Shown: positions 24,988 through 53,628 of the stretch, in pieces
Position numbering within the stretch: the stretch's first letter is position 1
Layout: the number at the start of each line of letters is the position of its first letter
Assembly: GCF_018080005.1 (NCBI RefSeq)
Contig: NZ_CP073015.1
Location: forward strand, 2,508,501-2,572,500
Length of the DNA: 64,000 nt
Source of the DNA: Flavobacterium sp. CS20
GTDB lineage: Bacteria > Bacteroidota > Bacteroidia > Flavobacteriales > Flavobacteriaceae
Direction: 5' to 3'
The notes under the pieces: model-generated
The model's database searches: none
Told to the model about the DNA's origin: nothing
Seen by the model: only the letters and a program-made list of their open reading frames with translations
Translations under genes and position numbers: made by a program

Positions 24988-25236
24988 TTAGTTGACCTTA
25001 AATATAGATTTTGCCTCTCTATAAATCCGTTCAAAATTGAGCTTTAATTCATCGGTTGTAAAATGTTGATGAGGATATGGTATTTCCCTTTTAATCACTT
25101 GTAGTTTAAATTGAACTCTTTTATCCTTGCCATCAGCAAAAGTTATAAACTCGCCTTGTTTCAAACGAAAGAAAACATCTGCCCTGCGTTTGGAAACTTC
25201 TTTTTCCTGTTTTCGTCGCTGGGACACCCAAATCAA
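24988..25236 (-). pseudogene. 3' fragment of an unknown gene cut by the IS1634-like element
   Basis: An open frame whose 5' end runs into the end of the insertion sequence: its first codons are IS-derived (IWV) and the host part begins SQRRKQEKEVSKRR. About 78 residues remain, with RADVFFRLKQGEFITFADGK and a C-terminal NFERIYREAKSIFKVN, predicted mixed alpha/beta and basic. I do not recognise the family. A conjugation or mobilisation protein C-terminus is possible from the general look, but I cannot support it. The fragment marks the pre-insertion content of the island's right end. Confidence 0.5.
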
Positions 25237-26776
25237 AAATCGAATAGATTTGCAATTTTTTTCTGCTCTTCACTTTTGATGTGAGTTAGATAAGTTATCT
25301 CTTTTGTTATTGGATGTTTTATTTTTACCGCATAAATTGTTTTTGCTATGTTGATAGCCTTCTCAGGACTTAATGAAGATTTCTTTTCATTGAGTTGCCT
25401 TTCTAGTTCCTTGTGTATTTTATATCTTGCAAAAGCTATGCAAATGTGAGCTTCAATCCTACGCTGAACTCTATGATAGATTGGTATTATTTTCAAGTCT
25501 GTCTTAGCTATTCTGAAAGCCTTTTCAATCTTCCATAAATGACTATAATTCTCTAAAATTTCATTTTTATTCAATTTAGCATTAGTTATATAGCCTTTTA
25601 GACCATCCCATTTTGCATCTGTTTCAAATTTTGTTTTGTCTATTGAAACTTTTAGCTCTCCATCAAGTTTTAGATATTTATTGTAACCTCTGTTATTGAT
25701 ACTTGACTTGGTTAGTTTTCCTGATCTAATTTTCTTTTCCAGTCTCTTTAATCCCTTTTCTCTATTGTGCTTATCTTTCTTGGCTCTTGAATCGGAATAG
25801 CTTATGATAAGTCTCAAATTACCTTTTTCTACAACTGCACTCTCTCCATTTTTAAGTTTTAAAGCTAATATTTTTTCTTTTATAAAGGACTTCTCATTTT
25901 TAATTCTAGCTCCAAGAATAAATTCATAACTTTTGCTTTGAAGTTCTTCTATGTTTTTAGAAGAAAGTAGCCCAGAGTCAGCGATGATGACTAATTGATC
26001 TAATCCGTATTTTTTCTTAAAACTATCAATGACTGGTAGCATGGTGTGTCCTTCAAATTTATTGCCTTCAAAAATATCGTAAGCCAATGGGTAACCATCT
26101 TTGCTAACTAATAACCCTAGCATAATTTGCGGATTTTGATGTTTGCCTTCTTTAGAGAAGCCTGTTTTGCGTAATTCATCTTCGTTATCAATTTCAAAAT
26201 AAATAGTGGTAACATCATAGAATACTACATTTATTGTTCCATCTAGTATTTTCAAGGTATGATTATAACTAATTTCTTGTATTTGGGATTTGTGTTGTTT
26301 ATGAAGCTTATCCATGTATCGGTAAACAACTTGAACATCAATAGCTTTATGTTGGTACTTAAAAAGATAATCTGATGTCTTAAGCTTACTAGAAGGGTAG
26401 CAAAGTCTAGCAAGAACCAATTGCTTAAATAAATCATGATTAATTTGATTGAACCCAATCTGATTAAAAAGCTTTCCTAAAAGCAGTTCCGGATATAAAC
26501 AGATATTTCTTCAAGTCCTTGAAGAACAAGTTCTGTGTGCTGTCTATAATCGTTAAAATCTAATTCTTGTGCTCCCGTATAATTTTTTATCCATTGTTTA
26601 CCTTGTTCATATAGATGGTCAACTTCAATTTTAGTAGCACTGCTGCCAATGGTCTTTAATAAGCGATACTTGCCACTACTTTTGTCAATGACTTGGACGC
26701 TAATTACACCGCTTTTATTTTTCTTTTTGCGAACAAACACAGTGCAAATTTACTAAAAAGACACCCTGGGACACCC
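25220..26776 (-). mobile_element. IS1634-like insertion sequence, degenerate
   Basis: About 1.56 kb containing a single disrupted transposase gene. Both edges carry TGGGACACCCA (25220-25230 and 26766-26776), itself a near-palindrome, so the ends could act as short imperfect inverted repeats. Reading inward, ATTTGCA appears at a similar distance from each end. One edge cuts the unknown gene at 24988-25236. Exact boundaries and target duplication could not be fixed by eye. Confidence 0.6.
25233..26740 (-). pseudogene. IS1634-family (IS4-type DDE) transposase with one frameshift
   Basis: The larger piece (25233-26420) shows a DDE transposase: DVTTIYFEIDNEDELRKTGFSKEG, with the first catalytic Asp region, LVIIADSGLLSSKNIEEL, with the second, and IEKAFRIAKTDLKIIPIYHR, with the YREK-like Glu region. 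The smaller N-terminal piece (26477-26740, MFVRKKKNKSGVISVQVIDK) is the usual start of IS1634 proteins. They are joined by an uninterrupted segment YPELLLGKLFNQIGFNQ in a second frame, so one base was lost near 26490-26498. The joined length of about 500 residues is normal. The product is inactive unless the frame is restored by slippage or the shift is an error. Confidence 0.85.
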
Positions 26777-26926: not shown

Positions 26927-26937
26927 GTCTTTGCTAG

Positions 26938-26995
26938 TAACGGGGACTGGACTCGAACCAGCGTCCGCCTCAGGCGGATATGAGCCCGACAAGCT
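26938..26995 (-). pseudogene. Remnant of an initiator tRNA-Met gene (3' half)
   Basis: The minus strand reads AGCTTGTCGGGCTCATA, then a palindromic insert TCCGCCTGAGGCGGA, then CGCTGGTTCGAG and CCAGTCCCCG. This is the anticodon arm through acceptor end of tRNA-fMet, with the 3' side of the anticodon stem replaced by the palindrome. The acceptor 5' strand and D arm are absent: the sequence abuts the stop codon of the GIY-YIG gene. It still has a good terminator behind it. Confidence 0.8.
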
Positions 26996-27245
26996 AATAA
27001 TCATGAATATTGTTTTTCATCCATTTGCGTCCTTTTCCGCTTTTTAAAAACTTTTCTCGTGACATAGCTTCATTTTTGGAATTATAAAATTCTACATGAA
27101 TTACAACCCAAGGTCTATATCTTATCGTATAGCCTTTCTTTCCTAACGCATTATGAGATTTAAATCTCGAAATCAGGTTAGAGGTGTAACCAACATAATG
27201 CTTAGGATATGACAAAGATTTTAATACATAAACGGCGTATTCCAT
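26994..27245 (-). CDS. Single-domain GIY-YIG nuclease (UPF0213-like)
   Basis: 83 residues covering just a GIY-YIG endonuclease domain. The motifs are VYVLKS and HYVGYT (GIY and YIG equivalents, about 5-21), the catalytic Arg in SRFKSHN (about 26-32), and the Glu in NEAMSREKFLKSGKGRKW (about 57-74). All catalytic positions look intact. The gene sits precisely between the terminator of the intact tRNA-fMet gene and a broken tRNA-fMet copy, its stop codon touching the tRNA sequence. Family members in Flavobacteria often lie beside tRNA or rRNA genes. Function is unproven; a structure-specific or homing-like nuclease is plausible. No promoter of its own was seen, so readthrough from the tRNA may supply expression. 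Confidence 0.85.
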   Translation of the reverse strand: MEYAVYVLKSLSYPKHYVGYTSNLISRFKSHNALGKKGYTIRYRPWVVIHVEFYNSKNEAMSREKFLKSGKGRKWMKNNIHDY

Positions 27246-27287: not shown

Positions 27288-27294
27288 GATTTAG

Positions 27295-27366
<72 letters not shown>

Positions 27367-28253
27367 ATATATTTTTAAAACTTTTTAGTAGCTTTTTCCA
27401 ATCTCATCTCGAACCAGCGTCCGCCTCAGGCGGATATGAGCCCGACGAGCGGACTTTATGCTGAGCTTGTCGAAGTATGCTACTCTACCCCGCGATATAT
27501 TTTTAAAACTTTTTAGCTTTTTCCAATCTCATCTCGAACCAGCGTCCGCCTCAGGCGGATATGAGCCCGACGAGCGAACTTTATGCTGAGCTTGTCGAAG
27601 TATCTTGCTCTACCCCGCGATATATTTTTAAAACTTTTTAGTACTTTTTCCAATCTCATCTCGAACCAGCGTCCGCCTCAGGCGGATATGAGCCCGACGA
27701 GCGGACTTTATGCTGAGCTTGTCGAAGTATGCTACTCTACCCCGCGATATATTTTTAAAACTTTTTAGTACTTTTTCCAATCTCATCTCGAACCAGCGTC
27801 CGCCTCAGGCGGATATGAGCCCGACGAGCGAACTTTATGCTGAGCTTGTCGAAGTATCTTGCTCTACCCCGCGATATATTTTTAAAACTTTTTAGTACTT
27901 TTTCCAATCTCATCTCGAACCAGCGTCCGCCTTAGGCGGATATGAGCCCGACGAGCGGACTTTATGCTGAGCTTGTCGAAGTATCTGCTCTACCCCGCGA
28001 TATATTTTTAAAACTTTTTAGTACTTTTTCCAATCTCATCTCGAACCAGCGTCCGCCTCAGGCGGATATGAGCCCGACGAGCGGACTTTATGCTGAGCTT
28101 GTCGAAGTATCTTGCTCTACCCCGCGATATATTTTTAAAACTTTTTAGTACTTTTTCCAATCTCATCTCGAACCAGCGTCCGCCTCAGGCGGATATGAGC
28201 CCGACGAGCGAACTTTATGCTGAGCTTGTCGAAGTATGCTACTCTACCCCGCG
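27367..28253 (-). repeat. Tandem array of seven degenerate tRNA-fMet-derived units with palindromic insertions
   Basis: Seven units of about 127 bp lie head to tail, directly upstream of the intact tRNA gene. Each keeps the tRNA 5' part (CGCGGGGTAGAG), the D-arm 3' side and anticodon 5' side (GCTCGTCGGGCTCATA) and the T-arm start (CGCTGGTTCGAG). Each also has an insert of about 28 bases in the D loop (containing CTTCGACAAGCTCAGCATAA) and the palindrome TCCGCCTGAGGCGGA in place of the anticodon 3' strand. The acceptor 3' strand is lost, replaced by AT-rich spacer. Units differ at a few fixed places (GGAC or GAAC; GTAGC, GCAAG or GCAG), giving a partly alternating A/B pattern. Open frames here are spurious. 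Confidence 0.92.
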
Positions 28254-28323
28254 ATATATTTTTCTAATTACGGACTGCAAATATAAGAATACTTTTCGTT
28301 TTGAACAAAATAATATAAAAGTA

Positions 28324-53213: not shown

Positions 53214-53244
53214 ATATTCACACTAAAGCCTTTCAATACAAAAT

Positions 53245-53628
53245 CATTAGTGCATTCGTGGCAAAAAAAAGAAAGCCATTAATGCGTTCGTGGTATAATA
53301 AAAAGAGTCATTAGTGCATTCGTGGCAAAACATCAAATACAATTATGTTCATAAAACATTAGTGCATTCGTGGCAAAAAAAGAAAGCCATTAATGCGTTC
53401 GTGGTATAATAAAAAGAGTCATTAGTGCATTCGTGGCAAAACATCAAATACAATTATGTTCATAAAACATTAGTGCATTCGTGGCAAAAAAAAGAAAGCC
53501 ATTAATGCGTTCGTGGTATAATAAAAAGAGTCATTAGTGCATTCGTGGCAAAACATCAAATACAATTATGTTCATAAAACATTAGTGCATTCGTGGTATA
53601 ATAAAAAGAGTCATTAGTGCATTCGTGG
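53245..53628. repeat. Tandem array of 11 copies of a 17-bp core
   Basis: Core CATTAGTGCATTCGTGG occurs 11 times (starts near 53245, 53277, and so on to 53612), three of them as the variant CATTAATGCGTTCGTGG. The cores are separated by three recurring linkers of about 14, 15 and 31 bases, arranged as a three-core super-unit of about 112 bp repeated three times plus two final cores. The linkers themselves repeat, so this is not a CRISPR array. No coding frame and no adjacent cas-like gene. Confidence 0.88.

Follow-up and report, generated by a model that had tools for sequence, protein, structure and literature searches.

A tandem array of initiator tRNA pieces in Flavobacterium sp. CS20 and a proposed family of GIY-YIG modules associated with tRNA genes

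Background

What could have placed seven broken copies of the initiator tRNA gene, each bearing a palindrome, directly upstream of the intact gene and close to a small GIY-YIG nuclease gene? The question is raised by a window of 64,000 nucleotides (the whole stretch of DNA analysed here) of Flavobacterium sp. CS20, in which an earlier interpretation made from the letters alone, hereafter called the sequence-only reading, had noticed the array. That observation is sound and understated. The explanation that we favour, and consider fairly probable, is that the locus belongs to a family of homing-type GIY-YIG modules, each specific for a tRNA gene, that would leave displaced and amplified tRNA pieces behind.

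Structure of the fMet array

Tandem Repeats Finder (TRF) detected a period of 127 bp with 7.2 copies at 27352-28263 of the window. When the sequence is cut at the acceptor 5' strand, exactly seven units of 125-128 bp fill positions 27367-28253 of the minus strand (127, 127, 126, 127, 127, 125 and 128 bp, in order), and the intact tRNA-fMet at 27294-27366 follows directly after unit 7, which confirms the seven-unit array of the sequence-only reading. The copy number is that of the assembly, in which the host genome is a single contig of 3.06 Mb. The features of the locus are as follows.

28277..28285, minus strand: promoter-like TATATTTGC, which we take to be of the TAnnTTTG consensus type, upstream of the array, with a TTG at 28306-28308
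28127..28253, minus strand: pseudo-tRNA unit 1, 127 bp
28000..28126, minus strand: pseudo-tRNA unit 2, 127 bp
27874..27999, minus strand: pseudo-tRNA unit 3, 126 bp, with the palindrome variant TCCGCCTAAGGCGGA
27747..27873, minus strand: pseudo-tRNA unit 4, 127 bp
27620..27746, minus strand: pseudo-tRNA unit 5, 127 bp
27495..27619, minus strand: pseudo-tRNA unit 6, 125 bp
27367..27494, minus strand: pseudo-tRNA unit 7, 128 bp
28179..28193, no strand assigned: anticodon-arm palindrome TCCGCCTGAGGCGGA of unit 1
28052-28066, 27926-27940, 27799-27813, 27672-27686, 27545-27559 and 27420-27434: anticodon-arm palindromes of the other units
27459..27475, minus strand: core of the D-loop insert, CTTCGACAAGCTCAGCA, in unit 7; one per unit, the motif being also found in tRNA-Lys arrays
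27294..27366, minus strand: intact initiator tRNA (CAT), the sole intact copy found in the genome
26994..27245, minus strand: gene of an 83-aa GIY-YIG nuclease (PF01541, 5.7e-16), whose TAG stop overlaps the tRNA-derived stretch
26937..26996, minus strand: displaced 3' part of tRNA-fMet, with the palindrome TCCGCCTGAGGCGGA at 26964-26978 and the 3' acceptor strand kept

Every unit retains the acceptor 5' strand, the D stem and GTCGGGCTCATA and has lost the 3' acceptor strand, which fits the earlier claims that the units derive from tRNA-fMet and cannot be charged. The displaced piece behind the GIY-YIG gene, an eighth fragment that is absent from the sequence-only reading, is the mirror image of the units. 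The D loop of each unit carries an insert, and TCCGCCT(G/A)AGGCGGA, followed by CGCTGGTTCGAG, stands in for ACCCGAAGGT, the 3' side of the anticodon arm. Two palindromic inserts had been claimed, and the one in the anticodon arm was borne out, since TCCGCCTGAGGCGGA alone folds at -8.9 kcal/mol and is a real hairpin; the D-loop insert, however, folds at 0 kcal/mol and is therefore an imperfectly symmetrical, REP-like motif and not a real hairpin. The A and B variants, described earlier as partly alternating, do not follow a clean alternation: across units 1 to 7 the order is TAGC, CAAG, CAG, CAAG, TAGC, CAAG, TAGC at site 1 and T, C, C, T, C, T, C at site 2. Spread of the units by unequal exchange, also proposed there, fits the sequence.

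None of the units was listed against the Rfam tRNA model even at E<=1 (the true gene scores 63.8 bits), and tRNA was the only Rfam family to reach its gathering threshold in the whole window. A self-splicing intron with a homing endonuclease was considered and rejected, as Rfam gave no intron RNA structure around the gene (between 26900 and 28350 no intron model appears at E<=1). When the locus was compared with plasmids, short matches at the tRNA itself were obtained, a comparison that led no further. Elsewhere in the window, three minus-strand reading frames that resemble, by eye, broken transposase pieces lie at 24988-26740, just past the displaced tRNA piece, and another tandem array, of 112-bp units with CATTAGTGCATTCGTGGCAAAA, occupies 53241-53628; similar GCCACGAATGCACTAA words were seen near a tRNA-Arg gene in locus L110.

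The GIY-YIG nuclease and its association with tRNA genes

Residues Y6, Y17, R27, H31 and E64, which we take to be the catalytic positions, are invariant in 24 aligned GIY-YIG sequences. By sequence, the nearest proteins of known structure are UPF0213 and SLX1, the latter a structure-specific endonuclease, and an intron-associated endonuclease ranks a distant eighth; NCBIfam and PADLOC gave no match for the protein. Relatives were found in at least 86 of the 246 genomes of the window's order. Two sets of loci were analysed, set A consisting of 30 loci from the best-scoring GIY-YIG matches and set B of 40 loci hand-picked among the matches listed, mostly from single-contig genomes. A tRNA or tRNA fragment on the same strand was present within 300 bp in 25/30 and 23/40 of them, respectively. 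As two loci are common to both sets, this amounts to 47 tRNA-linked loci among 68 distinct ones, the other 21 not being linked by the test used, and of four named GIY-YIG loci that came from a separate scan, three have a same-strand tRNA or fragment within the same distance.

Two orders of elements recur. In type I, the intact tRNA is followed by a terminator, the GIY-YIG gene and a palindrome-bearing 3' piece; in type II, a 5' piece with a palindrome in its D arm precedes the GIY-YIG gene and the intact tRNA. The isotypes concerned are Met, Arg, Ala, Asp, Asn, Val, Leu and Pro. Some GIY-YIG genes adjoin an intact tRNA without a displaced piece or palindrome (for example L134).

The tree of these proteins comprises 71 sequences, 50 of them labelled, aligned over 80 columns, and 32 of its 68 inner branches are open; L140, L143, L185 and L207 were dropped as too short and L120, L205 and L206 as duplicate loci. 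Isotype labels require 15 changes on this tree (minimum 12), compared with a shuffled mean of 35.2, and none of 200 shuffles was as low; the labels include one wrong one (Gln, type II), since the tRNA-Gln of L128 is in our reading a pseudo-piece. Type I and type II labels need 4 changes vs 10.7 in shuffles. Neither Arg-TCG (3 rows) nor Arg-ACG (2 rows) forms a cluster, and three changes each are required for Val and for Ala. Genome labels, a weak control because most genomes contribute a single row, gave 43 changes (shuffled mean 44.5, 28/200 as low), and family labels were mildly clustered (14 vs 19.4, 1/200 as low). The phylogeny of the GIY-YIG proteins thus largely predicts the adjoining tRNA gene. 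The ARAGORN calls of tRNA-Gln in L128 and of tRNA-SeC in L142 and L204 were read as pseudo-pieces mistaken for genes.

Palindromes at tRNA loci

Non-terminator palindromes, some of those listed being native tRNA arms, lie within 200 bp of 42 of the 50 tRNA-linked GIY-YIG genes (mean of 1.38 per locus vs 0.15 in shuffled sequence). They also flank 9/21 GIY-YIG genes without a detected tRNA (mean of 0.76 vs 0.09). As a background, a palindrome occurs in 3 of 62 stretches of 400 bp of the window, the array included. Set against the tree, TCCGCC-N2..4-GGCGGA is present in 16/19 loci of the Met clade and in 0/51 rows outside this clade and its long-branch neighbour L187, and, by reading, TCCCGCA..TGCGGGA is present in four of five Asn rows and TCCCGA..TCGGGA in four of six Val rows.

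The Met-type palindrome occurs at an identical CATA|TCCGCC..GGCGGA junction from Psychroflexus to several other families. The junction TCATATCCGCC..GGCGGA, searched as TCATATCCGCCN{1,6}GGCGGA, was found in 17 of 395 Bacteroidota genomes, and the reversed pattern in none. Among the 30 junction loci fetched from those 17 genomes, 21 were examined; 20 of these (all except that of G475) are tRNA-Met-like by reading and 12 have a GIY-YIG gene within 50 bp. At four junction loci, in families f1, f22 and f38, the piece lies upstream of an intact tRNA-Met at a distance of 65-77 bp, so upstream Met units are not confined to one genus.

The sequence-only reading had named wide occurrence of the unit as an ordinary intergenic repeat, with no link to tRNA-fMet, as an observation that would count against it, and this was not what the genome showed. 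Twelve TCCGCCN{1,6}GGCGGA sites exist in the 3.06-Mb genome and eight of them are at the fMet locus; the palindromes were accordingly not read as dispersed REPs, the copies being few and undispersed. All 13 occurrences of CTTCGACAAGCTCAGCA in the host genome fall within two tRNA array regions, and 17 of its 21 TCCCGN{3,9}CGGGA sites stand at tRNA arrays, as assigned by reading and with a count inflated by array amplification. The palindrome TCCGCCTTAGGCGGA was also seen at G000:C1:271928-271942 (L009), in what by eye is apparently 23S rRNA sequence.

fMet loci across Psychroflexus

When units were counted from acceptor-strand starts, upstream units were present at 7 of 25 fMet loci of Psychroflexus, the probable genus of the host, at six besides that of the window, with one to four units at each of these six. 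A TAnnTTTGC motif lies upstream of the first unit in all seven, at 18 to 45 bp in six of them and farther in L055, where an extra decayed unit was recognised by eye. At 17 of the 18 loci without units, this motif is 18-46 bp from the tRNA, and at the remaining one it is at 99 bp. The first unit therefore occupies the expected start position of the tRNA. At each of the seven loci a single promoter-like site precedes the units and the tRNA follows them, so that both are probably transcribed as one.

Such an arrangement is what would be expected if the units were a functional RNA, forming a transcribed leader of the sole initiator tRNA and acting as decoys for enzymes that target tRNA or as regulators of fMet-tRNA maturation. 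The sequence-only reading had likewise offered decoys or small RNAs, a role that is unsupported so far. The unit RNA shows little more structure than shuffled versions of it (z -1.12), it gives no Rfam tRNA match, 18 of the 25 fMet loci do without any unit, and several of the arrays beside other tRNAs stand, by eye, downstream of terminator-like sequence. We consider this explanation improbable.

The 3' ends of tRNA genes are classic attachment sites, and integrase-like reading frames, recognised by eye, stand directly 3' of tRNA-fMet in L054, L057-L060 and L063, which belong to several Psychroflexus species. The pieces might accordingly be scars of a tyrosine-integrase element with tRNA attachment sites that inserted repeatedly and left tRNA ends behind. 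Such an element would not be expected to produce 5' pieces upstream or palindromes inside tRNA arms, and the gene in the gap encodes a GIY-YIG protein, not an integrase; we regard this origin as very improbable.

A whole or partial GIY-YIG domain is encoded downstream of fMet in 7 of the 25 Psychroflexus loci, a patchy distribution, two of the loci having less than 80 bp of downstream sequence. In Psychroflexus curvus (G012:C34 6982-9781; L079, L120) eight GIY-YIG genes stand in tandem, one with an in-frame stop, and most of those read are followed by a palindrome-bearing 3' piece of tRNA-fMet and a terminator. L071 (G003) contains, by eye, about five tandem downstream units, each composed of a terminator and a tRNA-fMet 3' part whose T loop carries a palindrome.

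Partial tRNA copies and the proposed module

The host genome has 39 Rfam tRNA matches. Partial self-copies were found within 1.5 kb of 12 of its 38 intact tRNAs, tRNA-??? calls being left out of this count, and reversed queries gave 0/38. A tRNA-Lys array consists of 65-bp downstream units that share a motif with the D-loop insert of the fMet units; tRNA-Leu has 11 and elongator Met eight downstream units, tRNA-Gly has five upstream units detected and more by eye, and tRNAs Asn and Asp also have partial copies. Several arrays beside other tRNAs follow terminator-like sequence (by eye). Arms of the tRNA are often replaced in the pieces by short palindromes.

The pieces are directional, those upstream keeping the 5' part of the tRNA and those downstream the 3' part. 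In two genomes, 23 of 55 upstream BLAST matches cover nucleotides 1-5 and a single one reaches the last five nucleotides, namely nucleotide 73 of 75 in a tRNA-Asn of G188; six Lys matches located between the two tRNA-Lys genes were set aside from this upstream count. Of 67 downstream matches, among which six tRNA-Lys pieces are by our reckoning counted 18 times, 49 cover the last five nucleotides and none covers nucleotides 1-5. A second genome rich in GIY-YIG genes has partial copies at 8/33 tRNAs, and two genomes without a GIY-YIG match have them at 1/35 and 0/20, the comparison being one of four genomes, the last of them only partly sampled.

These pieces could have arisen by passive decay, in which a tRNA gene is duplicated in tandem through replication slippage or unequal exchange, the copies lose their function and common palindromic repeats accumulate in the unselected sequence, the GIY-YIG gene being a bystander. 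The pieces do match the tRNA of their own host and are highly repetitive, the upstream units are patchy (7 of the 25 Psychroflexus fMet loci) and they contain no GIY-YIG gene. However, one palindrome recurs at the same CATA| junction over several families, the GIY-YIG proteins cluster by isotype, and the palindromes of the host genome concentrate at tRNA arrays (the 17 of 21 sites given above, with their inflated count). On balance, passive decay seems rather unlikely to us.

The GIY-YIG module that we prefer would consist of a small SLX1/UPF0213-like GIY-YIG gene and a palindrome, with an intact tRNA on one side and a displaced piece of that tRNA on the other. The two mirror-image architectures around many isotypes, the association of GIY-YIG genes with tRNAs, the clustering by isotype, the palindrome tied to the module and the single shared promoter-like site are shown by the data; we infer the cleavage, the mobility, the order of events and the way in which the palindromes arise. 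The nuclease would cut its cognate tRNA gene, repair would restore one intact tRNA and displace the other half, and such halves, no longer under selection, could then multiply through recombination between repeats. The palindrome may be the site of action, a scar of it or a mark of immunity. In this view, the seven fMet units would be displaced 5' parts that stand at the original tRNA start behind the promoter, in an array without its own nuclease gene, and the fMet array itself is probably a by-product. Observations that speak against the module include the 21 of 68 loci without a linked tRNA, the GIY-YIG genes such as L134 that have neither a displaced piece nor a palindrome, and the palindromes beside 9 of 21 GIY-YIG genes without a detected tRNA. 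The upstream fMet units have no GIY-YIG gene, the Met-type GIY-YIG genes seen being of type I, and an intact tRNA persists beside the nuclease gene. The link to the adjacent GIY-YIG gene that the sequence-only reading suggested holds at the level of association, but the idea of the units as its RNA substrate gives way to a module that would act at the DNA level.

Relation to known systems

The nearest experimental precedent for the module is SegB of phages T4 and T6, whose GIY-YIG gene also stands beside tRNA genes (PMC13096335, available part). According to that part, cutting by SegB of phage T6 and recombination amplify tRNA-Tyr together with segB in tandem, the tRNA-containing segment being multiplied by break and recombination with microhomology between the ends of the tRNA and segB, and palindromes or displaced tRNA halves do not figure in it (PMC13096335). 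Unlike the phage system, as far as the same part describes it, the modules proposed here are chromosomal, cluster by isotype and include arrays without a nuclease gene. Free-standing GIY-YIG homing endonucleases share with the present protein the GIY-YIG domain with its predicted catalytic residues (PF01541, 5.7e-16). They lie at their target, and the tRNA adjacency (47/68) together with the isotype clustering makes the tRNA gene the putative target here.

In Escherichia coli, the repeats downstream of tyrT, with the rtT RNA, are tandem repeats that include the 3' end of the tRNA beside them. Two arrays of the host genome, those of Lys and Leu, fit this pattern, being repeats of the tRNA 3' end located downstream, whereas the fMet units lie upstream, are made of 5' parts and lack the 3' end; to our knowledge, the tyrT repeats have neither a nuclease gene nor palindrome-replaced arms. 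Fungal mitochondrial endonuclease genes displace part of their host gene, and the double-hairpin elements of Allomyces are palindromic hairpins. Endonuclease insertion, a rebuilt gene, a displaced remnant and palindromic hairpins are thus features in common with the present loci as interpreted here, but these elements are mitochondrial and we know of no bacterial family among them that is linked to tRNA isotypes. REP/REPIN sequences with their RAYT transposases likewise couple short palindromes to a gene for a small enzyme (PMC3733652, available part). Unlike these, the palindromes at tRNA loci are few, not widely dispersed in the host genome and located inside tRNA pieces.

In the literature searched, no account was found of a link between GIY-YIG proteins and either tRNA pieces or REPs, and the system behind the fMet array appears to be undescribed there. 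A Moraxella survey was the sole paper found to contain both 'GIY-YIG' and 'repetitive extragenic palindrom', and in its available text the two terms are unrelated; the accessible part of the GIY-YIG superfamily paper PMC1564403 does not mention a link with tRNA pieces, and 'GIY' is absent from the main text of the REP survey PMC12306157. What looked like an oddity of one gene becomes a testable system across several Bacteroidota families. If the proposal is true, homing-type endonucleases would have a new niche in the essential, conserved tRNA genes that cellular chromosomes carry, broken tRNA copies beside tRNA genes would have a cause, and the family might be a source of site-specific GIY-YIG enzymes.

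GIY-YIG genes without tRNA and REP-like repeats

One clade of the tree groups 11 GIY-YIG genes without a tRNA, one of them in the host genome at 809.6 kb (G000:C1:809592-809813, L186). The upstream and downstream flanks of these genes resemble each other in 11/11 cases at E<=1e-2 and in 10/11 at E<=1e-3, as compared with 1 of 121 window positions in the control; the repeats are inverted in two of ten and otherwise direct. Relatives are also found on plasmids recorded for Alphaproteobacteria, Neisseria and Spirosoma, and eight such loci were hand-chosen from 32 records. Seven of these eight show flank similarity (inverted in six), as do 2 of 273 control windows (inverted in none) in three of the same records. 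Six of the eight hand-picked loci have a clear CGTC-tagged hairpin no more than 300 bp away, a figure given without a background count of such hairpins and excluding a seventh locus (L264), whose two weak matches were not counted. The GIY-YIG loci without tRNA and with REP-like flanks comprise, with L186, the loci L191, L193-L195, L197, L213, L215, L217, L219 and L151, and L259-L266.

REPs tagged with CGTC are reported to be without a dedicated enzyme (PMC3733652, available part). The non-tRNA relatives have REP-like flanking repeats, several of them CGTC-tagged as in those REPs, and the tRNA-less GIY-YIG protein is, from these sequences, a candidate for the enzyme of CGTC REPs, which we offer as a lead rather than a survey. 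This side branch would be a concrete candidate for the enzyme that such REPs are reported to lack in the available text of PMC3733652. A broader idea, which we put forward as tentative and somewhat doubtful, is that a widespread class of bacterial palindromic repeats has its enzymes in small SLX1-like GIY-YIG nucleases, which would act on the palindrome as a DNA hairpin or cruciform. One branch would act at REP-like repeats, including CGTC-tagged ones, and others would have specialised on tRNA genes by isotype, inserting palindromes into arms, displacing halves and building arrays.

In Azospirillum lipoferum 4B, plasmid AZO_p3 (L268, 24507-24800), a GIY-YIG gene is located between sufB and sufC, with CGTC-type repeats on both sides, and looks inserted into the operon.
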